This document shows, one piece after another, positions 46,022-58,556 of a DNA stretch of 64,000 bases. Numbering within the stretch: the stretch's first letter is position 1; every line of letters begins with the position of its first letter. The DNA is taken from contig NZ_CP036289.1 in the NCBI RefSeq assembly GCF_007748115.1, forward strand, positions 4,092,001-4,156,000. Direction: 5' to 3'. Below the pieces are notes generated by a model. That model had not been told where the DNA came from. It saw nothing but the letters and a program-made list of their open reading frames with translations, and did no database searches. A program made the position numbers and the translations under genes. Origin of the DNA: Bremerella volcania (GTDB lineage Bacteria > Planctomycetota > Planctomycetia > Pirellulales > Pirellulaceae).

Positions 46022-46313
46022 CCGTTTCGCTTCCAGCTGAGCGACGATGCCGTCACCGATCGCCCTGGTCCCCCATTGGCGTCACGTAATCTTCATCTAA
46101 CGCAATTCGCGTCAAGTTGCGGGTTTGTCCCAACTCTTCGCTGGCACGTGATCATCGCTCCACTGGTAGCCGACCCCACAAAGGTTATCTTGGTAGTTAG
46201 AGGGAGGTCTTTGCTTCGACTTCTCCTACGAAATGTGGTCAATTGGAAGTTATTCGCCCAGCGAAGATATCCCCCAGTGGTATCGCCCAGGCTTGAACGA
46301 CAAGGAATTCATG

Positions 46314-47954
46314 ATGGCATCGACGACGACTCCCCTCACGCAGCTCAACGCCTGGAAAAGCTTGGCTGATCACTTCTCAGTAATTCAGTCGACACACCTT
46401 CGTACGCTATTCGCAGAAGATGCTCAGCGAGGAAAACGGCTGACAGCGGAAGGGGGTGACCTGTTCTTTGACTACTCGAAGAACCGCGTCACCGACGAAA
46501 CGCTGAAGCTACTGATTCAGCTCGCCGAAGAGTCTCAGCTGCGCGAGCGAATCGATGCCATGTTCAGTGGCGAGAAGATCAACATCACCGAAGATCGCGC
46601 CGTCCTGCATACGGCTCTTCGTGCCCCTAAGGACAAGACGATCATCGTCGACGGTGAGAACGTCGTTCCCGCCGTGCACGAGGTTCTCGACCGAATGTCG
46701 ACTTTCTCGGATCGCGTCCGTAACGGCGACTGGAAGGGGCACTCCGGTAAACGCATCGTCAATGTGGTCAACATTGGTATTGGCGGTTCTGACCTGGGCC
46801 CCGTGATGGCATACGAAGCATTGAAGCACTTCAGCCAGCGCGATATGACGTTCCGCTTTGTTTCCAATGTCGACGGAACCGATTTCGCGGAAGCGGTTCA
46901 AGATCTCGACCCTGCCGAGACCTTGTTCATCGTCGCCTCCAAGACGTTCACTACGCTGGAAACGATGACCAATGCCAACACGGCCCGTGACTGGCTGTTG
47001 GCCGCGTTTGATGGAGACGCTTCGTCGGTGGCCAAACACTTCGTCGCCGTTTCGACCAATGCCGATAAGGTTTCGGCTTTCGGGATCGACACGGCCAACA
47101 TGTTTGGTTTCTGGGACTGGGTCGGCGGTCGTTATTCGATGGATTCGGCGATCGGCCTCTCGACCATGTTGGCCATCGGTCCCGACAACTTCAAGGCGAT
47201 GCTCGATGGGTTCCACCAAATGGACGAGCACTTTCGCACTGCTCCTTTCGAGAAGAACATTCCCGTTCTGATGGCGTTGCTGTCGATCTGGTACAGCAAT
47301 TTCTTCGGTTCGGAATCGATTGCCGTCCTTCCTTACGAGCAGTACTTGAAGCGGTTCCCGGCCTATCTCCAGCAACTCACCATGGAGAGCAACGGCAAGT
47401 ACATCACGCTAAGCGGCAACCGCGTTGACTACACAACCGGCACCATCTACTTCGGCGAGCCTGGCACCAACGGCCAGCACTCGTTCTATCAACTGATCCA
47501 CCAAGGGACGGAGTTGATCCCCTGCGATTTCATCGCCTTCGGCAAATCGCTCAATCCCCTGGGACGGCACCATGACATGTTGATCGCCAACGTCCTGGCC
47601 CAGTCAGAAGCGTTAGCGTTCGGTAAGACCGAGGCTCAGGTGAAAGAGGAAGGAACGCCTGACTGGCTGGTACCGCATCGTGTATTCGAAGGGAATCGTC
47701 CGTCCAACACGATCTTCGCCGATGAGCTTTCCCCGTCGGTCTTGGGGCAACTGGTTGCGTTGTATGAACACTGCGTATTTGCCCAGGGTAGCATCTGGCA
47801 GATCAATTCGTTCGATCAATGGGGCGTTGAACTAGGTAAACAGCTCGCCCAGAGAATCATTCCCGAACTGGAAAGCAGCGAGACGCCCGATCTTCAGCAT
47901 GACAGTTCGACCAACAACCTCATCCGCCGTTATCGCGCCATAAAGGAGAAATGA
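46314..47954 (+). CDS. pgi: Glucose-6-phosphate isomerase
   Basis: 546 residues from the ATG at 46314, 7 bases after AAGGA; a frame open to 46233 is rejected. Interconverts glucose-6-phosphate and fructose-6-phosphate. Motifs: [63 protein letters not shown], and [14 protein letters not shown] near the C-terminus. The length matches the standard large PGI. Its stop overlaps the start of the aldolase gene (ATGA-type overlap), so the two are translationally coupled. Confidence 0.97.
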
Positions 47955-48856
47955 TGTCCATCATCAGTGTCACCAGCGAGGAGTTCCTGAAGTTCCAGAC
48001 CACCCCCGGCTTTGTCGCCGCGCTCGATCAAAGCGGCGGCAGCACGCCCAAAGCACTTCGTCTCTACGGCATCAAAGAAGATGCCTGGTCCAACGATGAA
48101 GAGATGTTCGAACTGGTGCATCAAATGCGGACACGCATCATCACCAGCCCCAGTTTCAACGGCAATCGAATTCTCGCCGCGATCCTTTTCGAGAACACGA
48201 TGGATCGCGAGATCGAAGGGGTGCCAACGGCTTATTATCTTTGGGATGTGAAAAAGATCGTACCGATCCTTAAGGTCGACAAGGGCTTGGCCCCCGAGGA
48301 CAAAGGGGTCCAACTGATGAAGCCGATACCGCAACTGGACGAACTGCTGACGCGGGCCAAAAAGAATGGCATCTTCGGCACGAAGATGCGCTCGGTCATC
48401 AAATTGGCCAACCCCATCGGCATCAAAGAGGTGGTCGATCAGCAGTTCGAGGTTGCGGAAAAGATCATCGCAGCCGGCTTGGTTCCGATTATCGAGCCTG
48501 AGATCGATATCCACAGCCCGGAGAAAGCCCAAGCGGAAGCCCTGCTGAAAGAATGCCTTGCCAGCCATTTGGGGCATCTTCCCGACCATAAGTACGTGAT
48601 GCTGAAACTCACGCTGCCTGAGGAAGATGATTTCTACCGAGCTTTTGTCGAACATCCTCAGGTATTGAAAGTCGTCGCCCTGTCCGGCGGTTACACACGT
48701 GAAGAGGCCAACGAGCGTCTGAGACGCAATCACGGTGTCGTGGCGAGCTTTTCTCGAGCTCTCACCGAAGGGCTGACCGCCCAGCAAACCCCGGAAGAGT
48801 TCGACGCCATGTTGGATCGATCGATCCAAAGCATTTACGACGCATCGATCACCTAA
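47951..48856 (+). CDS. fda: Class I fructose-1,6-bisphosphate aldolase
   Basis: 301 residues. It closely resembles the single-domain class I aldolase of staphylococci: [81 protein letters not shown], and the Schiff-base lysine in [11 protein letters not shown]. It cleaves FBP to triose phosphates without metal. The start ATG overlaps the pgi stop by 4 bases and has AAGGAG upstream. A strong hairpin follows. Confidence 0.97.
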
Positions 48857-48880
48857 AAAAGCCGAACAGCAGTACCCATT

Positions 48881-48908
48881 GGCCGATCCTACACCTGTGT
48901 GATCGGCC
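48881..48908 (+). terminator. Hairpin after the pgi-aldolase operon
   Basis: GGCCGATC (48881-48888) pairs with GATCGGCC (48901-48908), with an inner ACAC/GTGT stem separated by a 2-nt bulge. No T-run follows. The remaining stretch up to the next start (48909-49274) holds no gene I can support. Confidence 0.65.
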
Positions 48909-49274
48909 GTAAAATTGGGCGGAGTAGTTTTTTGCATCCACTCTTAAGCATTTACACGAAGGAACTTAGCAGACAAGCGGCGAAATCCGTCAGCGATGAT
49001 CATTTTTTCCGGCAGAGCCCCTTGCAAGCTTGTCCGAGGCTGGTATCCTTAAAAAGTACTGAGATTCAATATCAATATCTGCCGCCAGCCTCTTTTGCCA
49101 GCGTCCAGGCACACCAACACACAATCACGTAGACCAAGTACGCGATTTGTAGTTTCTTAAGGATGCTGTTTTCGCTTTCACTTTCTCGATCGTTTGGCGG
49201 CCATGCGTGCCCTAATCAACCGTATAACCGCGGCTAAGCGGTCATCACTAACGAGCATTCGCCAGGTATCCTTC

Positions 49275-50612
49275 ATGAAATACGTGCCCATTTATAGCTT
49301 TGCTTTCCTCCTCTGGATAACTCCGCTCGTCGTCCTGCTTGTCGGCGAGTCTATTGCCGAGGAATTTCGGCCGATCGCTTGGCCCTCTTTCCAGAACGGC
49401 GGACATCTGTCGGTAGCCGGCGAACCACTTCCAACGCGCTGGTCCGCCGACGAGAACATCGCCTGGAAAGCAGAGATTCCCGGCTACGGGCAATCGACCC
49501 CGATTGTGACTGGCAGCCAGATTATCGTGACATCGACCAGTGGTCCCAATAAAGAGAACTATCACCTGGTCGCCTATTCGCTGGAAAAAGGGGAAAAGCT
49601 CTGGCAACAGGATTTCAAAAATCCCAGCCCCGTCGAGAACACCACGTACGTCAGCCGCGCTGCCCCGACCCCCATCGCGGATGACGCAGGCTACATTGCC
49701 TACTACGAAGGGGGACTGGTGGTCGCCGTTTCGCATGATGGAAGTATTCGCTGGAAACGCGACTTGGTTAAAGCATACGGTCCGATCAGTTCGCGACATG
49801 GTCTGTCTTCCTCGCTGGAACAACAAAATGACCTCGTCTTTGTTTGGGTGGAACGATCGGAAGAGCCTTACCTGGCTGCTCTCAACAAATCGACCGGAGA
49901 AACCGTCTGGAAAGTCGAGGGACTCGGCACGACGTCGTGGAGTACGCCGCGCCTGGTTCCAGTCGGCAATACCGCGCACCTGGTATGCAGCGCTAGTGGC
50001 AAGATTGCCGGGTTCGATCCAGAAAGCGGCGAGCGATTGTGGCAATTCGACCAGATCGCGAACAACACGACCTGCACTCCCATTCCACTGGGTGATGGTC
50101 GATTTCTGATCGGCGCCTCGGAGGGACGCGGCGAAGCGGCCGCGCAAACCGATGGCACATCGAACGGCGTGATCCAGATTGCCAAGCAAGATGACGGCAC
50201 CTACTCGGCAGATTTCGCCTGGCAGGCCGCGAAAGCAAAATCGAGCTTTGGCAGCCCTATCGTGGCTGACGGAACCGCTTGGTTTATCAACCGCAGCGGA
50301 GTTCTGTTTGGCGTCAATCAGGAAACCGGCAAGCAAACCACCACAGCCCGGCTGGCTGCCGGAGGTGTTTGGGCGACGCCACTTCAGCAAGGCAAGTGGC
50401 TGTACATCTTCGGCTCGAATGGGACCACTTCGATCTTCGATATGACCTCCGGCGAGACAATCGCGGAGAACTCGTTATGGGCGACCTTGGAAGGCGCCGA
50501 CGGAGAAGAGTCGTCGTCAGAGATCATTTACTCCGCGGTTCCCGTTTCCCCTTACTTGATTCTTCGTACAGGTAGCACCTTGTACGCCATCCAAGAGAAA
50601 CCATCCAGCTAA
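49275..50612 (+). CDS. Exported PQQ-like beta-propeller protein
   Basis: 445 residues from the ATG at 49275; a frame open from 49194 adds residues before the signal peptide. Signal: VPIYSFAFLLWITPLVVLLV and beyond. WD40/PQQ-like repeats occupy about 45-440, each with blades such as YSLEKGEKLWQQDF, NKSTGETVWKVEGL, DPESGERLWQFDQI and NQETGKQTT. The G-E-x-L/V-W blade motif is repeated. No PQQ-binding residues or haem site are evident, so it may be structural or a sugar/protein binder. It is the first gene in the run of exported proteins; its link to the next gene is by proximity (46 bp). Confidence 0.87.
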   Translation: MKYVPIYSFAFLLWITPLVVLLVGESIAEEFRPIAWPSFQNGGHLSVAGEPLPTRWSADENIAWKAEIPGYGQSTPIVTGSQIIVTSTSGPNKENYHLVAYSLEKGEKLWQQDFKNPSPVENTTYVSRAAPTPIADDAGYIAYYEGGLVVAVSHDGSIRWKRDLVKAYGPISSRHGLSSSLEQQNDLVFVWVERSEEPYLAALNKSTGETVWKVEGLGTTSWSTPRLVPVGNTAHLVCSASGKIAGFDPESGERLWQFDQIANNTTCTPIPLGDGRFLIGASEGRGEAAAQTDGTSNGVIQIAKQDDGTYSADFAWQAAKAKSSFGSPIVADGTAWFINRSGVLFGVNQETGKQTTTARLAAGGVWATPLQQGKWLYIFGSNGTTSIFDMTSGETIAENSLWATLEGADGEESSSEIIYSAVPVSPYLILRTGSTLYAIQEKPSS

Positions 50613-50658
50613 CGAAATCGCACCCACCAGCGAGTTCACCTTCCCCTAAGGTAGGTCC

Positions 50659-51366
50659 ATGAAACTATTGAAGACCCTCGTTACATTATGCCTTATGGCC
50701 GTGGCGACACCAGCCTACGCTCACTTTCCCTGGGTAATCATCAATGAAGAAGGGAATGTGCAGTATTTCTTCGGCGAAAACCCCGCCGATCGCACCTACA
50801 AGTTACCAGGCTCCATCGCCAAATCGGAAGTGGAACTGGTTACCGCCAAGGGCACCAAAGAAAAGTTGGAACTGAACGCAGTCGAAAAAGACGACTTCGT
50901 GGGGCGCACCACCAGCAAGCCCGTCGACAAAGCTTCGCTGCTTCAATCAAAGGTTACCTTCGGCATCTATCACGGCTCGCGACTTGACTACTACACCGTT
51001 CACCACGGCGGCAAGTTGCCTGCCTCGCGAGAAGACGCCCAAAAGCATTCCACCGATCTCGAACTGAAGGCCGACCTTGTCGACGCCGAGCATGGCGTCG
51101 ATGCTTACATCACTTGGAAAGGCCAGCCGCTGACCGACGCCGACGTTCTGCTTTTCTGCGAAGAAGGACACCAGGAAGCTTCCAAAAAAACTGACAGCAA
51201 AGGCAAAGTCTCTTTCACCGACAAAGAAGTGGAAGACGGCCTCAACGGCATCATGGTCGGGCACACCGTGAAGGATGAAAACGGCTCGCTGAATGACAAG
51301 AAATACGAATCAGCATCCCACTACCTGACCGTAACGTTTAAGGATCCGCAAGACTTCGAGAAGTAG
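50659..51366 (+). CDS. Exported DUF4198-like beta-rich protein
   Basis: 235 residues. A signal peptide (TLVTLCLMAVATPAYA) leaves a mature N-terminus beginning with His (HFPWVII), a feature of DUF4198/NikM-like periplasmic proteins, where it may bind metal. A beta-sandwich is likely (ADRTYKLPGSIAKSEVELV; LTDADVLLFCEEGHQ). No enzymatic motif is visible. Relatives occur next to PepSY, DUF2271 and TonB genes in metal-acquisition loci. It is closely followed (49 bp) by the kelch/EF-hand gene on the same strand. Confidence 0.75.
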   Translation: MKLLKTLVTLCLMAVATPAYAHFPWVIINEEGNVQYFFGENPADRTYKLPGSIAKSEVELVTAKGTKEKLELNAVEKDDFVGRTTSKPVDKASLLQSKVTFGIYHGSRLDYYTVHHGGKLPASREDAQKHSTDLELKADLVDAEHGVDAYITWKGQPLTDADVLLFCEEGHQEASKKTDSKGKVSFTDKEVEDGLNGIMVGHTVKDENGSLNDKKYESASHYLTVTFKDPQDFEK

Positions 51367-51415
51367 TGTTTTCCCTCACTCTTGGCTCTGTGGCATTCAT
51401 TTCCTATCCATTCCA

Positions 51416-54298
51416 ATGAAAAATCAACCGATGCGAACCCATCTTACCTATCTGTGCATTGCTTTGGGCGCCGCCATGGCGATTCCAAGCTACGCCATCG
51501 AAGCCGAAACGCAAACGACCGCCAAGACATCGGAGCCGACGGCTGCCAGTCTTCGTCAGGCTGCTCACGATAGTCGCGAAGTCTGGCACAACTTCCCCGG
51601 CTTCACGGCCAACATTGTGGTTTCCGAAGATTCGCAGCGATTCGAGGGAACGATTCGCGTCGAGAAGGACTTCGAGTATGTCCTCAACATCCCAGAAGAA
51701 GGCCAGAAGACTTGGCTGAAGTCGAAACTACGCTCGGTCATCTCGCATCGTGAGCCACATGCGTCTCCCGAACGGTACGACGTCTCGTTCCAAGACGAAG
51801 ACGCCCCACATGTTGCCGGCCGCCTGATTGCCGAGAACGACGGATCCGGGATTTTCCGGATTCAGGATGGTCAAATCAAGGAAGTCATCCGCCGCAACGA
51901 GTCTTCCTGGTTCGAGATCACCACGCTTGAGAACTTCACGACCCCGGCCGGCAAAGTACTGCCGCAAACCACGTCGGTCACCTTCCGAGATCCTGACACC
52001 GGCAACATCGAGTCGAATCTAAGCAACAACTTTGCTTGGAAGAAAGTCGGAAACTATTACCTGCCCGATCACTGCTACACCGTGAAGACAGGCGAGAAGG
52101 GTGAGCGTTCTGTTCGCAAGCTCGAGTTCTCGGCTCACCAGTTGCATTTGGGCGAGCCAAGTGTGGTCAAACTGCACAAGCCGCTACCGGAATCGTTGAC
52201 TAGTTTCGGGGCGGCCGTCATGGGTGACTATCTGTATGTCTTTAGCGGACATGATGGGGATGCCCATGGCTTCGGCAAAGACGTTTTGGCCGATCATTTC
52301 CGTCGGATCAAGTTCGATGATCCCAATGCCCAGTGGGAAGAACTTGCCAAGCAGGAGCCTGCCCAAAGTACCGCCCTGGTCACCGATGACACTTACATTT
52401 ACCGGATCGGTGGGCTCACCTTCCTGAACAGGGGAGACGAAGAGACCAACTTCAAATCGACAACGCATTTCACGCGGTACGATGCCGAGAAAAACGAGTG
52501 GACCGACCTGGCTCCGCTGCCCAAACCTCGTTCGTCGTTGGATGCAGCCGTGCTGGGGCGGCACATTTATGTTGCTGGCGGTTGGGATCTGCAAGGCGAG
52601 TCATCCAGCGATGCTCCCTGGCACGACGATATTTTGCGGTTTGATCTCGATCATCCCGAAAAGGGATGGGAGTCTCTTCCAGGGCCCGGCTACCTGACCC
52701 GAGCCGTTTCGGTTGCCGCCCATGATGGAAAGCTGTACCTCTTCGGCGGCATTCAGAAGAAGGGGATTACCCGTAGAGTCTCCGTCTTCGATCCCAAATC
52801 CGAGAGTTGGTCGACAGCGCCTGAGCTGAAGGCCGACAGCAGCGCCGCTGGCTTCGCGACCAGTTCATTCGCGACTGGAGGTCATCTGTACGTCACGGGT
52901 AGTTCTGGCATCCTCTATCGCCTGAGCGACGACGGTACCGACTGGGAAGTCGAAACGCGACTCATGTACCCACGCATGTTTTTGCGACTTCTGCCGGTCA
53001 CCGAAAATCGCCTTCTGGCAGTGGGTGGAACGTCCATGCTGGGAGGTCGGCTGGCAGCGATCGAATCGGTTCCGGTTCAAACAAAATCGTCTGGTCCGAA
53101 TGTTGTCCATTGGTCGGTACCGTTCGACGGCAAAGCCAAGCAAAGCCAAACGTTGGTCCTCGATGGCACGAATCTGTACGCCCTGGGGGGGAACTCCAGC
53201 CGGAAGCCGCATGACTTTACCAAGGAAACGATCCTCAAGGAAGCGTTCGTTTACGATATCGCCAACCAAACTGGCGAACGTCTGCCCGATATGCCGCATG
53301 CCCTGCAAAGTGGCACCGCGGTTCGTCATGCTCAAACGAGCGAACACAAGCATCTGCTTGTTTTGGGTGGCCTCGGCATGCCAGGCCGGGAGTTTGGTTC
53401 GCTCTCCCAGGTGCTCTCATTCAATCCTGAGAGCCAAGCCTGGACGACCGTCAGTTCGACGCTGCCAACGCCGCGAGGGATGCTCGATGCCATCAGCTAC
53501 GATGACGCCGTTTGGTGTTTCGGCGGTAGCGAAGCTGGAAAAAGCCGCGGTTTGAACGCGAATGTCTTGCATTGGTGGGGTGACGAGACCACCATCGCTC
53601 CTCTTCCTGAAGTCACCCTGCCTCACCCACGACGATCTTTTGGTGGTGCCCAGATCGGGGATGAATACTTCATGGTAGGCGGCCTGGGGGAAGGGAACAT
53701 CGTCGAGACGGTCGATGTTTTCCATTTGAGAGATCGCGTTTGGCGAACGATTGCCCCACCGCATAAGCACCGTGTGTTTCCCAGTCTGGCCAGCGATGGC
53801 AAGCGGCTGTACTTATTCGGAGGATTCTCGAATACCAATGGGCACTTCTCGCCGGAACCCTCGCTGGAGGTTTACGATCCAGCGGCAAACCGCTGGACAG
53901 TGCTCGCAGAGGAACTGCCTGGTATCGATAGCTCGATGGCAATGTTCAATTTTGGAGGTCGTCTGCTATTCTACGGTATCGACCGAGGAAAAGACGGTCA
54001 GGCCAATTTCGTCTTGTTTGATCCCAACCCTCGCGAACCTCCCGCCGAGGCGGAAGGTTTAAACTTCTCAGTCCGTCGTCGAGGTAGCGACGCCGAGGCC
54101 AACGCCAAGACGATGATGCGAAAGGATACCAATAAGGACGGCAAACTTTCGGCCGATGAGTTGGGAGATCGTCTCGGTTCGCTCATCGAGTCAGGCGATG
54201 AAAACAAGGACGGACTGCTGACGCAGGAAGAGTTGATCGCGACCTTGAAGAAGCAAGAAGAGCAAGCGAAATCAAATGAGGACAAGGACGAAGCATAG
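51416..54298 (+). CDS. Large exported protein: DUF3386-like, kelch-type beta-propeller and EF-hand tail
   Basis: 960 residues. Signal peptide (THLTYLCIALGAAMAIPSYA) at about residues 8-27. Residues about 45-245 resemble DUF3386 (ASLRQAAHDSREVWHNFPGF, ANIVVSEDSQRFEGTI, NYYLPDHCYTVKTGEKGER). Kelch repeats form two propeller-sized blocks, about 260-555 and 560-875 (LVTDDTYIYRIGGL, SSLDAAVLGRHIYVAGGW, AVSVAAHDGKLYLFGGI, GKRLYLFGGFSNTNG). The tail has two EF-hand loops, DTNKDGKLSADEL and DENKDGLLTQEEL, near 905-945. Calcium-dependent folding or binding is likely. No catalytic site is visible. It is encoded in the same run as ApbE-DUF2271 and PepSY. Confidence 0.85.
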   Translation: MKNQPMRTHLTYLCIALGAAMAIPSYAIEAETQTTAKTSEPTAASLRQAAHDSREVWHNFPGFTANIVVSEDSQRFEGTIRVEKDFEYVLNIPEEGQKTWLKSKLRSVISHREPHASPERYDVSFQDEDAPHVAGRLIAENDGSGIFRIQDGQIKEVIRRNESSWFEITTLENFTTPAGKVLPQTTSVTFRDPDTGNIESNLSNNFAWKKVGNYYLPDHCYTVKTGEKGERSVRKLEFSAHQLHLGEPSVVKLHKPLPESLTSFGAAVMGDYLYVFSGHDGDAHGFGKDVLADHFRRIKFDDPNAQWEELAKQEPAQSTALVTDDTYIYRIGGLTFLNRGDEETNFKSTTHFTRYDAEKNEWTDLAPLPKPRSSLDAAVLGRHIYVAGGWDLQGESSSDAPWHDDILRFDLDHPEKGWESLPGPGYLTRAVSVAAHDGKLYLFGGIQKKGITRRVSVFDPKSESWSTAPELKADSSAAGFATSSFATGGHLYVTGSSGILYRLSDDGTDWEVETRLMYPRMFLRLLPVTENRLLAVGGTSMLGGRLAAIESVPVQTKSSGPNVVHWSVPFDGKAKQSQTLVLDGTNLYALGGNSSRKPHDFTKETILKEAFVYDIANQTGERLPDMPHALQSGTAVRHAQTSEHKHLLVLGGLGMPGREFGSLSQVLSFNPESQAWTTVSSTLPTPRGMLDAISYDDAVWCFGGSEAGKSRGLNANVLHWWGDETTIAPLPEVTLPHPRRSFGGAQIGDEYFMVGGLGEGNIVETVDVFHLRDRVWRTIAPPHKHRVFPSLASDGKRLYLFGGFSNTNGHFSPEPSLEVYDPAANRWTVLAEELPGIDSSMAMFNFGGRLLFYGIDRGKDGQANFVLFDPNPREPPAEAEGLNFSVRRRGSDAEANAKTMMRKDTNKDGKLSADELGDRLGSLIESGDENKDGLLTQEELIATLKKQEEQAKSNEDKDEA

Positions 54299-54370
54299 GC
54301 TCTATCATCTGTTGCCCTGTATCAATGGTTATTACACGCGGTTTTTCGAAACCCTTTGAATAGCAAACGC

Positions 54371-55891
54371 ATGAAACTCCGAATCTGGAACCTTGTCTTT
54401 CTGGCGCTGCTGGCCACCACGGCAGTGCCTCTGATGGCTGACGACTTTCACTTTCACCATGAACATGTGCTCGGGACGTCTTTGCACCTGGCCATTTCAT
54501 GCGAGGACAAAGCGAGGGCCTCCATCATTGAGCGAAGCGTCCTTCAGGAAATTGATCGACTCGACGGCGTGCTCAGCCGCTGGGACGACCAAAGCGAGTT
54601 CATGGCCTGGCAAGCTGGCCATACGACCTTAGTCTCTGAAGATCTCGCCACCGTTCTACAGCGTGCGGACTATTGGCGAAACGCCACCCGCCATGCGTTC
54701 GACGTTCGCGCGGAAGCCATATCTAGCATGTGGAGGGACGCTGCTAAGAATGGCCATGCTCCCACCGACACGCAGCGACGACAACTCGCCGCTAAGCTAG
54801 AAGCCGCTCCCTACGCATGCACCAGTGACGGATCAATCGGGCGAGGTGACGACCTGGTCGTCAGTTTGGACGGCCTCGCCAAAGGCTACATTCTGGATCG
54901 AGTGTGTGATCTCGTGCAGCGAGAATATCCTGAGACACGTGATTTTCTCATCAACATCGGCGGTGACCTGCGAAAACTGGGAGACCAGCCGCTAGAGATT
55001 GCGATCGAGAATCCTCGCGATGCCTCGGAGGGCGTTCAACCACTACAAACGTTTGTCGTCGCTCAGCCGATCGCGATAGCGACCAGTGGAAGTTACCGCC
55101 GCTATCAGACCCTTGGCGATCGCCGGGTGTCGCATATTCTCGATCCCCGAACCTGCTTGCCGGCCGAACTTACTCAATCGGTTACGGTCGTCAGCACTTT
55201 GGCGATTGATGCCGATGCCCTGGCCACTTCGGTGAGTGTTCTGGGGCCGGTGGATGGGCTCGCTTTAATTGAAAGCCTGGAGGACACCGAGTGCTGCCTC
55301 GTCACCGCCTCGGGAAAACTCGTGACCTCCAGCGGATGGCCGCTCGGCACTGGAGAAGCAAACTCGCTCAAGCTCGTTGCCAACGAGGACGCGCCGAAAG
55401 CCGAACACGGTCTGTTCGTCGACTTCACAATTCAGCGAGCCGAAGGGGGGCGATATCGCCGTCCGTATGTTGCCATGTGGTTGGAAGACGCTGAAGGTTT
55501 TCCGGTCAAAACGGAAATTCTCTGGATGCAAACGGAGCAGCCTGGCCCTCGATGGCATCGCGATTTGACGCGTTGGTATCGCAATGACCGCCTCCGCAAA
55601 ACGGTCGAGAACATCGATCTGATTGACACCATTTCCGGGGTAACGCGTGGCCCAGGCGAATACAAAGCTCACTTCGACGGAACCGACAATCTCGACCTGC
55701 CGCTGGCCGCCGGCAAATATACTCTGTGCCTGGAAGTCGCACGCGAACATGGAACATATCAGATCATTCGCGAGACCTTCGAGTGGGGCGATAAGCCGAT
55801 CGCCGAGAAGAAGCTGAAAGGGAACGTGGAAGTCGGATCGATGTCATATCGCTTCGTTCCCCTGGCAGCCACGGACAAAGAGGCCCCATGA
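54371..55891 (+). CDS. ApbE-type FAD:protein FMN transferase fused to DUF2271
   Basis: 506 residues from the ATG at 54371; a TTG at 54356 adds five codons. A signal peptide is at about 1-27, followed by HFHHEHVLGTSLHLAI. The ApbE domain at about 30-325 has HAFDVRAEAI, VSLDGLAKGYILDRVCD, LINIGGDLRKLG, and VSHILDPRTCLPAE with the metal-site region IDADALATSVSVLG. Compared with the first ApbE (25320) the substrate-loop residues differ (LDGLAKGY for LGGIAKGY). Residues about 335-500 match DUF2271: FTIQRAEGGRYRRPYVAMWL, DLTRWYRND, DLPLAAGKYTLCLEVAREHG. DUF2271 is an exported beta domain often adjacent to PepSY proteins. Its stop overlaps the PepSY start (ATGA). The fusion suggests self-contained flavinylation of a partner. 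Confidence 0.88.
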   Translation: MKLRIWNLVFLALLATTAVPLMADDFHFHHEHVLGTSLHLAISCEDKARASIIERSVLQEIDRLDGVLSRWDDQSEFMAWQAGHTTLVSEDLATVLQRADYWRNATRHAFDVRAEAISSMWRDAAKNGHAPTDTQRRQLAAKLEAAPYACTSDGSIGRGDDLVVSLDGLAKGYILDRVCDLVQREYPETRDFLINIGGDLRKLGDQPLEIAIENPRDASEGVQPLQTFVVAQPIAIATSGSYRRYQTLGDRRVSHILDPRTCLPAELTQSVTVVSTLAIDADALATSVSVLGPVDGLALIESLEDTECCLVTASGKLVTSSGWPLGTGEANSLKLVANEDAPKAEHGLFVDFTIQRAEGGRYRRPYVAMWLEDAEGFPVKTEILWMQTEQPGPRWHRDLTRWYRNDRLRKTVENIDLIDTISGVTRGPGEYKAHFDGTDNLDLPLAAGKYTLCLEVAREHGTYQIIRETFEWGDKPIAEKKLKGNVEVGSMSYRFVPLAATDKEAP

Positions 55892-56505
55892 GGTCGGATG
55901 AACAGACGCCTCGCCGTCGTCGGTCATGGTATGCCGCTAGTGCCAAGCTAACGCGTTGGCTACATACCTATTTGTCGATGATTAGTTTCGCGACGCTGCT
56001 CTTCTTCTCCGCCACAGGACTCACCCTGAACCATCCAACTTGGTTCGGGGCAGACGAGGTCGTTATTCGCGAGTATGAAGGCTCGTTCCCAACTTCCGAG
56101 TTGGCCGATGAAGTGGATAAGCTATCGATTGCTGAGCACCTTCGCGCCACGCATCATCTCCAAGGGAAAGTTGCCGAGTTTGAGGTCTCGGACTTCGATT
56201 GCATGGTAACTTTCAAGAGTCCCGGTTATGTCGCAGACGTGTTCATCGACCGCGAGACCGGCAAGTATACGGTCAGTGAGGCATCCAGCGGGGCAATCGC
56301 CATCATGAATGACCTCCATAAGGGCCGCGATTCCGGCCCAGAGTGGTCGTGGGTGATCGACGTCTCGGCGATTCTTATGGTGTTGGTTTCCGTGACAGGT
56401 CTCGTCCTTTTGTTGTTCCTAAAGCGTCAACGCAACGCGGGGCTGATCGTGACCGTGGCGGGCACCATCCTTTTGGTCGTTGCCTGGCTGCTCTGGGTTC
56501 CGTAG
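55888..56505 (+). CDS. PepSY-associated TM helix protein
   Basis: 205 residues, starting 4 bases inside the end of the ApbE-DUF2271 gene. A basic N-terminus is followed by TM1 (TYLSMISFATLLFFSATGLT), an extracytoplasmic PepSY-like domain at about 50-140 (VADVFIDRETGKYTVSEA), LHKGRDSGPEWSWVIDVS, then two TM helices at about 150-175 and 182-203. This is the short PepSY_TM type, related to sections of ferric/flavin reductases and PiuB-like proteins. It has few His that could bind haem (LHTYLS, DLHKGRD), so electron transport across the membrane is possible but unproven. Confidence 0.85.
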   Translation: MRSDEQTPRRRRSWYAASAKLTRWLHTYLSMISFATLLFFSATGLTLNHPTWFGADEVVIREYEGSFPTSELADEVDKLSIAEHLRATHHLQGKVAEFEVSDFDCMVTFKSPGYVADVFIDRETGKYTVSEASSGAIAIMNDLHKGRDSGPEWSWVIDVSAILMVLVSVTGLVLLLFLKRQRNAGLIVTVAGTILLVVAWLLWVP

Positions 56506-56864: not shown

Positions 56865-58556
56865 ATGTGCTTGAGTCGAGCGATTGCAACGCGTCCCATG
56901 CCGATGAGCCGCTGCCTGGGCCTGATTAGGTTCGGAGCCACCAAGCGTGAACTTCCCAGCGGAGGCGATGATTTGATTCGGATTGAAGTGAAGAAGGGCC
57001 CGATGCAAGGTCGGGTCTATGAGTTTGAAGGACACGATATTTTCCTCTTCGGGCGCGACGAGCAGCATTGTCACGCTTCGATCCAGGAAGATCCGTTCGT
57101 CTCGCGTCATCATTTCTTGCTTGAGGTCAATCCGCCCCTCTCTCGGCTTCGTGACTTGGGAAGCCGTAACGGCACGTTTGTCAACGGAAAGAAACATGGT
57201 GGCCGTGTGACGTTTGCCAGCCTTGAGAATGAAGGCAAAGTCGGCGGTTCATCGGTCGACCTGACTAACGGCGACGTCATCACAGCTGGCAAGACCGTCT
57301 TCCAGGTCTTTGTCGAAGAAAAGAAAGCCATAACGGCGACATGTGTCTTCGATAAGTTCGTGGAGGAAGACTCGCAGGAAGTTTCCTCGGGTGGTGATAT
57401 TCGTCGCACCATTACCGAACTGCCACCTCCCAGTCCTTCGTCGGCGGTTGGCCGGCAAACGATGCACGAATTACCGCCGTCGATGCCCGGCAATGCGGGG
57501 CGACAAACGATCAACGAATTGCCTCAACCGGCCCCCGGATCGAATGTCGGCAGGCAGACGATCAACGAGATGCCGCCACCGGCCGACATTTCACAGGTCG
57601 CCGGACGAGCCACGATGGTCGAAGGCGCAAATGCTCCGAATGGTGCATTTGGCAGTCGGATCGGTCATAGCGATCATGCCTACGAAGCCCCTGAACGCCA
57701 GCCAGGCGAGTTCCCCATTCTGGATGGTTTCGAGTTCAAAGAATTTCTGGGCGCGGGTGGCTTGGGCGAGGTCTACCTTGCTCGGCGAACGATCGACGAC
57801 AGCCCCGTGACCGTCAAGTTCTTGAGATCTCGCATCAACGTAAGCCATGATGCACGTGACGCCTTCTTGAAGAGCATGCAAGTCAGCGGTCGACTTCGTC
57901 ATCGCAATATCGTGCAGTCCTTCGGGACTGGCAGCATTGGCAACGAATTCTACGTCATCAACGAGTACTGCGACGGCGGGCCACTCGCCAAATTGTTTCG
58001 TCAGAAAAAGACGAACGTGCAGCCCAAACACATTGCCGTTTCGCTCTACTTGCTGCTAGACGGCCTGGCATTCGCTCACGAAAAGGGGCTCGTGCATCGC
58101 GATCTGAAGCCTTCTAACTTGCTGGCTGCCAAACGCAACAAACGCTGGATTCCCAAGATTGCTGATTTCGGTCTGACCAAAGACTTTGAAAAGGCAGGCT
58201 TTTCCGGAATGACGGCGACCGGCACCTACACCGGTAGTTTCCCTTACATGCCGCGCGAGCAATTGACCGACTACAAGTACGTGAACCCTGCCAGCGACGT
58301 CTTCAGTATGGGCGCCAGTTTTTATCGCATCATCACCGGCCGATACCCTCGTGGTGACGAGAAAGGCAGCGATCCATTGGCGCTGATCCTCAGCGGCGAA
58401 GTTCAGCCGCTGCGAAAGCGCTACCCTGGCTTTCACCCTGGTCTGGCCGATGTGCTCGACACGTCGCTGCAGACGGAATGCTGTGAACGTTTCCCCAATG
58501 CTCGTGAAATGCAAAACGCGCTTCGAGTGGTTATGAAAAAGGAAGGATGGTTGTAG
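56865..58556 (+). CDS. FHA-domain Ser/Thr protein kinase with a repeated RxT(I/M)xELP linker
   Basis: 563 residues. An FHA domain lies at about 40-150: IFLFGRDEQHCHASIQ, VSRHHFLLEV, LGSRNGTFVNGKK, which bind phosphothreonine. A Pro-rich linker at about 182-262 has repeats around Thr: RRTITELPPP, GRQTMHELPPS, GRQTINELPQP, GRQTINEMPPP and GRATMVEG. The kinase domain at about 285-560 shows the glycine loop GAGGLGEVYLARR, Lys in VTVKFL, VHRDLKPSNL, ADFGLTKD, and YMPREQ in place of the usual APEQ. It lacks a TM segment. It overlaps the next gene by 10 bases. I infer that the linker threonines are self-phosphorylated and bound by an FHA domain. Confidence 0.9.
   Translation: MCLSRAIATRPMPMSRCLGLIRFGATKRELPSGGDDLIRIEVKKGPMQGRVYEFEGHDIFLFGRDEQHCHASIQEDPFVSRHHFLLEVNPPLSRLRDLGSRNGTFVNGKKHGGRVTFASLENEGKVGGSSVDLTNGDVITAGKTVFQVFVEEKKAITATCVFDKFVEEDSQEVSSGGDIRRTITELPPPSPSSAVGRQTMHELPPSMPGNAGRQTINELPQPAPGSNVGRQTINEMPPPADISQVAGRATMVEGANAPNGAFGSRIGHSDHAYEAPERQPGEFPILDGFEFKEFLGAGGLGEVYLARRTIDDSPVTVKFLRSRINVSHDARDAFLKSMQVSGRLRHRNIVQSFGTGSIGNEFYVINEYCDGGPLAKLFRQKKTNVQPKHIAVSLYLLLDGLAFAHEKGLVHRDLKPSNLLAAKRNKRWIPKIADFGLTKDFEKAGFSGMTATGTYTGSFPYMPREQLTDYKYVNPASDVFSMGASFYRIITGRYPRGDEKGSDPLALILSGEVQPLRKRYPGFHPGLADVLDTSLQTECCERFPNAREMQNALRVVMKKEGWL

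Follow-up and report, generated by a model that had tools for sequence, protein, structure and literature searches.

What is the function of a run of five co-directional genes for exported or membrane proteins in the planctomycete Bremerella volcania? The genes occupy positions 49275-56505 of a 64,000-nucleotide stretch of DNA (the window; all coordinates given here are window positions), and the genome itself (G000) is a single 6.5-Mb contig. A sequence-only reading had seen in them an extracytoplasmic flavin/metal redox system for iron or copper. In my judgement, the locus is probably a Fur-repressed periplasmic ferric reductase operon, in which the carrier receives its flavin in cis and which feeds FeoAB. 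This reading is built on the gene order, the domains, the conservation of an operator class found upstream of feoA, the acceptor and catalytic residues of an ApbE-DUF2271 fusion, the predicted fold of a DUF4198-like protein, and one DUF4198-kelch fusion.

A conserved run of five genes

The analysis of open reading frames and domains confirmed five genes on the plus strand. The fourth gene (54371-55891, with an ATG at 54371) encodes an exported protein of 506 residues, in which an ApbE domain (PF02424, 188.5 bits) is fused to a DUF2271 carrier domain (PF10029, 119.7 bits), both above the cut-off. The fifth gene (55888-56505) encodes a PepSY_TM_like_2 membrane protein (PF16357, 163.5 bits, above the cut-off) and overlaps with the fusion gene by 4 bases, as the sequence-only reading had described. 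The remaining intergenic gaps are 46, 49, and 72 bases. Upstream of the fusion are the genes for an exported PQQ_2/BamB-like propeller (49275-50612; PF13360 above the cut-off), a DUF4198-like exported protein (50659-51366), and an exported protein of 960 residues (51416-54298) that consists of a DUF3386 domain, a kelch propeller, and two C-terminal EF-hand loops. The DUF3386 domain lies at 51533-52144 (residues 40-243, PF11866, E = 1.3e-31), and both PF11866 and kelch are above their cut-offs. Signal peptides, and the cleavage before His in the DUF4198-like protein, were assigned by eye.

Is this gene order conserved? In the class sample, all eight members of the genus (G000, G205, G327, G333, G381, G442, G579, and G641) have the same five genes in the same order, including the PQQ propeller gene. 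This exceeds chance, and the neighbourhood check that the sequence-only reading had proposed thus came out positive in planctomycetes. The flanking genes were compared in five of these genomes, and those of G333 are unlike those of G000, G205, G327, and G381. Thus, at least one relocation has carried all five genes together. For the same reason, neither the upstream glycolytic genes (46233-48856) nor the downstream kinase gene (at 56865) was counted as part of the operon.

The search was extended to a phylum sample of 392 genomes. DUF2271 was found in 39 of them, with 36 over the cut-off, and 40 stretches around DUF2271 matches and 16 around kelch homologues were fetched. All five genes are present in the metagenome-assembled genome of Planctomycetaceae bacterium Plancto4 (L103), where neither the kelch gene nor the fusion gene lies in a single frame. 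A search at E = 1e-30 gave kelch homologues in 169 of 297 genomes; among the matches listed, most align over about 300 of 645 residues, and these partial matches were set aside as paralogues. At least 23 near-full-length homologues were examined among the matches listed. DUF2271 and PepSY lie directly downstream of the kelch gene in 16 of these 23, with an ApbE-DUF2271 fusion in 15 and a DUF2271 without ApbE in one (G450).

The other parts of the run can be described briefly. The EF-hand loops of the kelch protein read DTNKDGKL and DENKDGLL, and the EF-hand models scored slightly under their cut-offs; a calcium-dependent propeller, considered from the two loops, is unsupported. As a guess, the PQQ propeller may serve as a scaffold or in binding. 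The genome has four ApbE matches and a single DUF2271 match, which is the fusion in the window, and three FMN_bind matches were found elsewhere in two frames.

Operators upstream of the operon and of feoA

Is the operon under iron control? A 15-base palindrome of the Fur type, TGAGATTCAATATCA, lies at 49060-49074, which is 200 bases before the first gene. It stands 10 bp after the TATCCT of a promoter-like element on the plus strand (49022-49049; TTGCAA, a 16-bp spacer, and TATCCT preceded by TG). The two hexamers and their 16-bp spacing are identical in all eight genus genomes, matching the sigma-70 consensus at 8 of 12 positions by my own count, and the operator follows TATCCT by 10-11 bases in each of them. 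Variants of the operator within the genus are TGAGATTTAATCTCA in G333 and TGAGATCAATTCTCA in G442. A generic promoter scan did not call the conserved element and gave promoter and terminator counts no higher than those of shuffles, and an Rfam search of the surrounding region (48850-49300) gave no match.

Related sites, matching at 11-13 of 14 positions, were found upstream of the cluster in further planctomycetes, about 40 to 1,400 bases before the first nameable cluster gene. They are TGAGAATGAGTCTCA (L047 and L102), TGAGACTCAGTCTCA (L053), TGAGACTCAATCTCA (L099), TGAGAATGAGTCTTA (L050), TGATATTGATTCTCA (L104), TGAGACTCTGTCTCA (L101), TGAGATTGAGTCTCA (G488), and TGAGACTGAGTTTCA (G591), and some of these stretches contain an additional weaker site. 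In planctomycete stretches upstream of fusions, with duplicates removed, 19 sites were counted against 8.25 expected (n = 50); over all upstream stretches the count was 36 against 26.6 (93 stretches, duplicates included).

The same operator class was found upstream of feoA. A FeoA match is present in 11 of 18 chosen genomes, and in all 11 the top-scoring operator-class site on the gene's strand starts 30-90 bases upstream of the match. The score of these sites (11-13 of 14) was reached in 0-4 of 500 mononucleotide shuffles. Thus, the operon is tied to FeoAB. In the genome of B. volcania, a search with the window palindrome found only one perfect place and one with a single mismatch, and a broader consensus was therefore adopted. 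With one mismatch allowed, the broader pattern found nine places, compared with two for the reversed control. The only exact TGAGANTNANTCTCA site in this genome precedes feoA-feoB, whose products were confirmed by Pfam as FeoA and FeoB. The genome has two FUR-family genes, either of which may encode the protein that binds the operator. The case for the operator rests on its conservation and on feoA, not on a single site.

Just downstream of the operator, a GCCAGC-N7-GCCAGC direct repeat lies at 49084-49102 (plus strand). In 10 distinct genomes, which belong to two families (the window, L037, L039, L041, L042, L053, L099, L211, L212, and L213), a GCCAGC-N6/7-GCCAGC repeat comes after the operator; for the remaining 22 rows with this repeat in the fetched DNA, the 120 bases upstream contain no operator. 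The repeat may be the site of a second regulator or an element of the 5′ leader.

As a side observation, three of the seven other Fur-like places in the genome (those outside the operon and feoA) precede DUF1559 genes by 130-345 bases (G000:C1:501187, 940974, and 3740579, in L079, L080, and L083); Pfam confirmed these genes as DUF1559. DUF1559 has 129 matches in this genome. A DUF1559 gene is also found ahead of the PepSY-DUF2271-DUF4198 genes in G205 and of two kelch genes of a second family described below (L222 and L223). Some of these pilin-like proteins may be iron-regulated, judging from the positions of the sites.

A predicted flavin carrier and its putative metal-binding partners

Does the fusion carry its own flavin acceptor? 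The acceptor motif described for ApbE substrates is D-x-x-[S/T]-G-A-[S/T] (PMC12052999; for DUF2271, PMC8238504). A search for such a motif, as the sequence-only reading had suggested, placed one inside the fusion itself, in an atypical form that the earlier reading had not noticed. The DUF2271 domain has SGVT at 55634-55645 (plus strand, TCCGGGGTAACG) in the context D-T-I-S-G-V-T, and flavinylation is predicted at the Thr. Of the other seven genus members, six have SGAT and G442 has SSAT. In the motif of another substrate, an Ala-to-Val change is reported to leave about 50% flavinylation (PMC12052999). Thus, by analogy, the protein in the window is probably still modified, at a lower efficiency.

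A scan of a genome collection gave 392 stretches, including 326 relatives, and the best 80 were retained. Together with other fetched loci, and with five loci removed as duplicates because their contigs were equal in length, this made a set of 102 fusions, whose counts are not independent events because many are close relatives of one another. Judged by record titles, the fusions are distributed in Planctomycetota, Verrucomicrobia, Acidobacteria, and Bacteroidetes, with one further record labelled Proteobacteria, so the cis-fused form spans at least four phyla. In a single Armatimonadetes locus, ApbE and DUF2271 are separate adjacent frames. Of the 98 fusions with at least 650 bases of downstream sequence, 90 are followed immediately by PepSY.

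The acceptor could be read in 101 of the 102 fusions, the split L103 being unreadable. It is Thr in 95 and Ser in six, and the residue before it is most often Ala (86 fusions), otherwise Pro (14) or, in the window alone, Val. Of the other motif positions, the Gly is kept by only 27 of 101 fusions and the Asp by 9 of 102. Among 19 DUF2271 frames that have no ApbE (counting an SGAP remnant in G307 and the second half of the split L103), 13 have the Gly and 16 have the Asp. The fusion of enzyme and substrate may have relaxed the motif; since the fused and unfused sets also differ in lineage, I offer this as a hypothesis.

The enzyme part appears to be intact. The AlphaFold model of the window fusion has a mean predicted local distance difference test (pLDDT) score of 91.0, and its ApbE part resembles the solved structures of the flavin mononucleotide (FMN) transferases FmnB, Ftp, and ApbE. 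The window protein has Ser, His, and Asp at the published triad positions. All 102 fusions have the Ser, and all but one have the His; the third position varies (61 Asp, 37 Gly, and four Asn).

Two side observations concern these domains. In the 37 fusions with Gly at the third position (L140-L177; Acidobacteria, Bacteroidetes, and others), the catalytic/metal-binding Asp is replaced and the Ser is kept (xAGAL[AS]T versus ADALAT), which raises the question of whether these sequences encode a changed or an inactive transferase. In G307, a DUF2271 frame of 111 residues with SGAP (L051:18092-18427) stands ahead of an intact PepSY gene in a stretch with no ApbE match, and a separate DUF2271 with SGAT lies about 8 kb away. 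To judge from its sequence, the short frame is an apparent decay product of a fusion.

The PepSY protein may supply the electrons. An alignment of 14 PepSY proteins has His49 and His144 in every sequence and His26 in 11. Heme binding by such His residues is described in a comparison with FoxB (PMC11334425), and by analogy a heme is probably held by His49 and His144. A sequence search of solved structures with the PepSY alignment gave no match.

What does the DUF4198-like protein bind? The Pfam model PF10670 gives it 20 bits, under the cut-off of 34, and its sequence had no match among solved structures. A model built with five sequences (pLDDT 87.8) gave the best Foldseek matches to 9mhj, 9mhn, 9mhl, and 9mhm (E = 1e-11 to 9e-11), which are Zcp in the native form or with Co, Zn, or Cu. 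A nickel-bound DUF4198 protein of Ideonella (IsDUF4198, 9gcb) was matched at E = 2e-8, and the template modelling (TM) scores across the Zcp and 9gcb matches are 0.59-0.65. The protein is thus predicted, from this model, to fold like the solved metal-binding DUF4198 proteins. The sequence-only reading had also noticed its mature N-terminal His, and this agrees with the family. Its profile gave 14 matching rows from 13 distinct genomes, all 13 of which have a mature HFPW start. The codon of His1 is at 50722-50724 (plus strand). The nickel ligands in 9gcb are His1 and His18 (PMC12537917). The window family has no invariant second His, and Glu19 (mature numbering; codon at 50776-50778, plus strand) is present in all 13 genomes. 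Glu19 is a candidate second ligand that may stand in for His18.

The partner of this protein may be the kelch protein. In locus L101, a profile match revealed that the DUF4198-like and kelch proteins are one chain. A second kelch family (G403, G460, G448, G457, and G419) has about 250 extra N-terminal residues that begin with AHFLW in five of five, and the Glu19 position, partly read by eye, has Glu in four and Asp in G403. These proteins bear a resemblance to DUF4198 fusions and are not counted as proven ones; their first 250 residues matched neither Pfam (two proteins tested) nor the DUF4198 profile, and the HFLW start is all that they have in common with it. In all five loci, a Fur-type site scoring 12 of 14 lies 0.9-2.2 kb upstream, and the 18-kb stretch contains no DUF2271. 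Thus, the kelch and HFxW segments probably act together, and they may be iron-controlled even without the flavin part, as far as these sequences indicate. As a separate observation, two genus members (G205 and G327; L038 and L040) have, besides the fusion operon, a second operon of PepSY, DUF2271 (SGAT), and DUF4198, the last confirmed by Pfam.

Proposed ferric reduction, its alternatives, and known systems

How might the system work? When iron is scarce, Fur would leave the operator at 49060-49074, and the operon would be transcribed together with feoAB. The Thr of S-G-V-T would receive its flavin in cis from the fused ApbE domain. The PepSY protein would pass electrons outward, probably via heme on His49 and His144, to the flavin on the DUF2271 domain. 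The reduced flavin, on contact with the secreted DUF4198/kelch pair, would reduce ferric iron held there at the His1 site, and the ferrous iron would then enter through FeoB.

Several observations weigh against this reading. The operator consensus was derived from the genomes on which it was tested, and a lone operator is not significant, with five sites of equal score inside the 64-kb window. No site of 11 or more was found upstream of the cluster in G450, L100, and L103, the last two of which have little upstream DNA, and the fusions outside planctomycetes showed no operator enrichment (15 sites versus 14.0 expected in 41 stretches). The kelch proteins are not tied to the reductase, since the fetched stretches around 7 of the 23 near-full-length homologues listed (G647, G403, G460, G448, G457, G419, and G587) show no adjacent DUF2271. 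The strict [S/T]GA[S/T] motif is absent from the window, which is the only one of the 101 readable fusions with Val before the acceptor; this weakens the strict motif claim for this strain but leaves the mechanistic claim untouched. Lastly, nickel, zinc, cobalt, and copper are the metals bound by DUF4198 proteins in the solved structures and published descriptions consulted, and iron is not among them.

May the unit then serve nickel, zinc, copper, or cobalt, with the DUF4198-like protein delivering the metal and the redox part keeping its state right? The best structural matches, Zcp with Zn, Co, or Cu and the nickel-bound protein, would suit this, and the Ideonella protein is reported to be most stabilised by nickel (PMC12537917). 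However, the operator class is common to feoAB in all 11 genomes with FeoA, and published relatives respond to iron and Fur. I regard this alternative as improbable. Copper was also dropped as the main substrate, as no evidence spoke for it. Of the two metals named in the sequence-only reading, iron is thus the more likely one, given the Fur-type operator class of feoAB, and copper found no support.

It is also unlikely that the unit is iron-responsive without assimilating iron, serving at low iron as an electron outlet or a defence against redox stress that needs no iron cofactors. The five genes include no uptake transporter, and it has been argued in a discussion that flavin carriers may replace iron proteins at low iron (PMC8238504). 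The operator class in common with feoAB, the association with a DUF4198-like protein, and the fitness defect of the Caulobacter relatives in ethylenediaminetetraacetic acid (EDTA) speak for assimilation instead. That flavinylation is weak or lost in this species, leaving a metal-binding or scaffold set with a vestigial carrier, is very unlikely, since the unique Val and the decay or loss seen elsewhere (the SGAP fragment of G307 and the DUF2271 without ApbE of G450) are outweighed by an intact reading frame with the catalytic Ser, His, and Asp, a close relative that is 93% identical over the domain and has SGAT, and the roughly half-maximal flavinylation reported after Ala-to-Val elsewhere.

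The ferric reductase reading may be extended, although I put this forward only tentatively and with some doubt. Self-contained, cis-flavinylated ferric reductases would form a class in several phyla, in which the motif is free to drift down to Thr or Ser because ApbE loads its own fused DUF2271. In planctomycetes, this class would be joined to a new kind of Fur-controlled protein for iron capture, a DUF4198-kelch pair whose His1/Glu19 site would be richer in oxygen than the nickel site formed by His1 and His18.

These results provide a concrete hypothesis, namely that a single Fur-type operator class serves feoAB and a flavin-based reductase operon in planctomycetes. About 100 ApbE-DUF2271 fusions constitute a natural experiment on how strictly flavinylation sites are recognised when enzyme and substrate are in one chain. 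The operon also places a DUF3386-kelch protein in a genomic context for the first time. Literature searches, covering few subscription journals, found no description of DUF3386 and, among the top-ranked matches, none of the planctomycete arrangement or of Fur/iron control in planctomycetes.

How does the locus compare with known systems? The core of ApbE, DUF2271, and PepSY, with or without DUF4198, is already known and implicated in ferric reduction, a point that the sequence-only reading had overlooked. Meheust 2021 (PMC8238504) describes 3220 PepSY-like flavinylation clusters, 2833 with DUF2271 and 1500 with DUF4198, in which ApbE flavinylates DUF2271, and reports that Fur represses clusters of this kind in Caulobacter and Shewanella. 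The window shares with them ApbE, DUF2271, PepSY (PF16357/PF03929), DUF4198, the extracytosolic location, and the link to Fur and ferric reduction. Together with the conserved neighbourhood, this match in domains supports an extracytoplasmic flavin/metal redox system. The window differs in having the carrier and ApbE in one chain, as part of a class of fusions with a relaxed acceptor motif, and in the addition of a PQQ propeller and a DUF3386-kelch-EF-hand protein. In Alteromonas, DUF4198/DUF2271 gene pairs increase under iron limitation (PMC7190382).

In Caulobacter, CCNA_03155-03159 likewise combine a PepSY-family membrane protein, DUF2271, DUF4198, and ApbE under Fur (PMC3751524, PMC12004947), and insertions in them reduce fitness in EDTA (PMC12004947). 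They are separate genes, however, with a sulfite-reductase-type flavoprotein, and the published list of the five contains neither a kelch nor a PQQ protein. The DUF4198-like protein resembles IsDUF4198 (9gcb) and Zcp (9mhj and others) in fold, and IsDUF4198 also in the mature N-terminal His. It differs from IsDUF4198 in lacking an invariant second His that matches His18, with the invariant Glu19 at a similar distance along the chain, and from the DUF4198 metal proteins in being under the Pfam cut-off and adjoining, or fused to, a kelch protein. In comparison with these systems, what is new is the five-gene order, the operator class common to feoA, the pairing of the DUF4198-like and kelch proteins, and the cross-phylum cis fusions with a relaxed motif.

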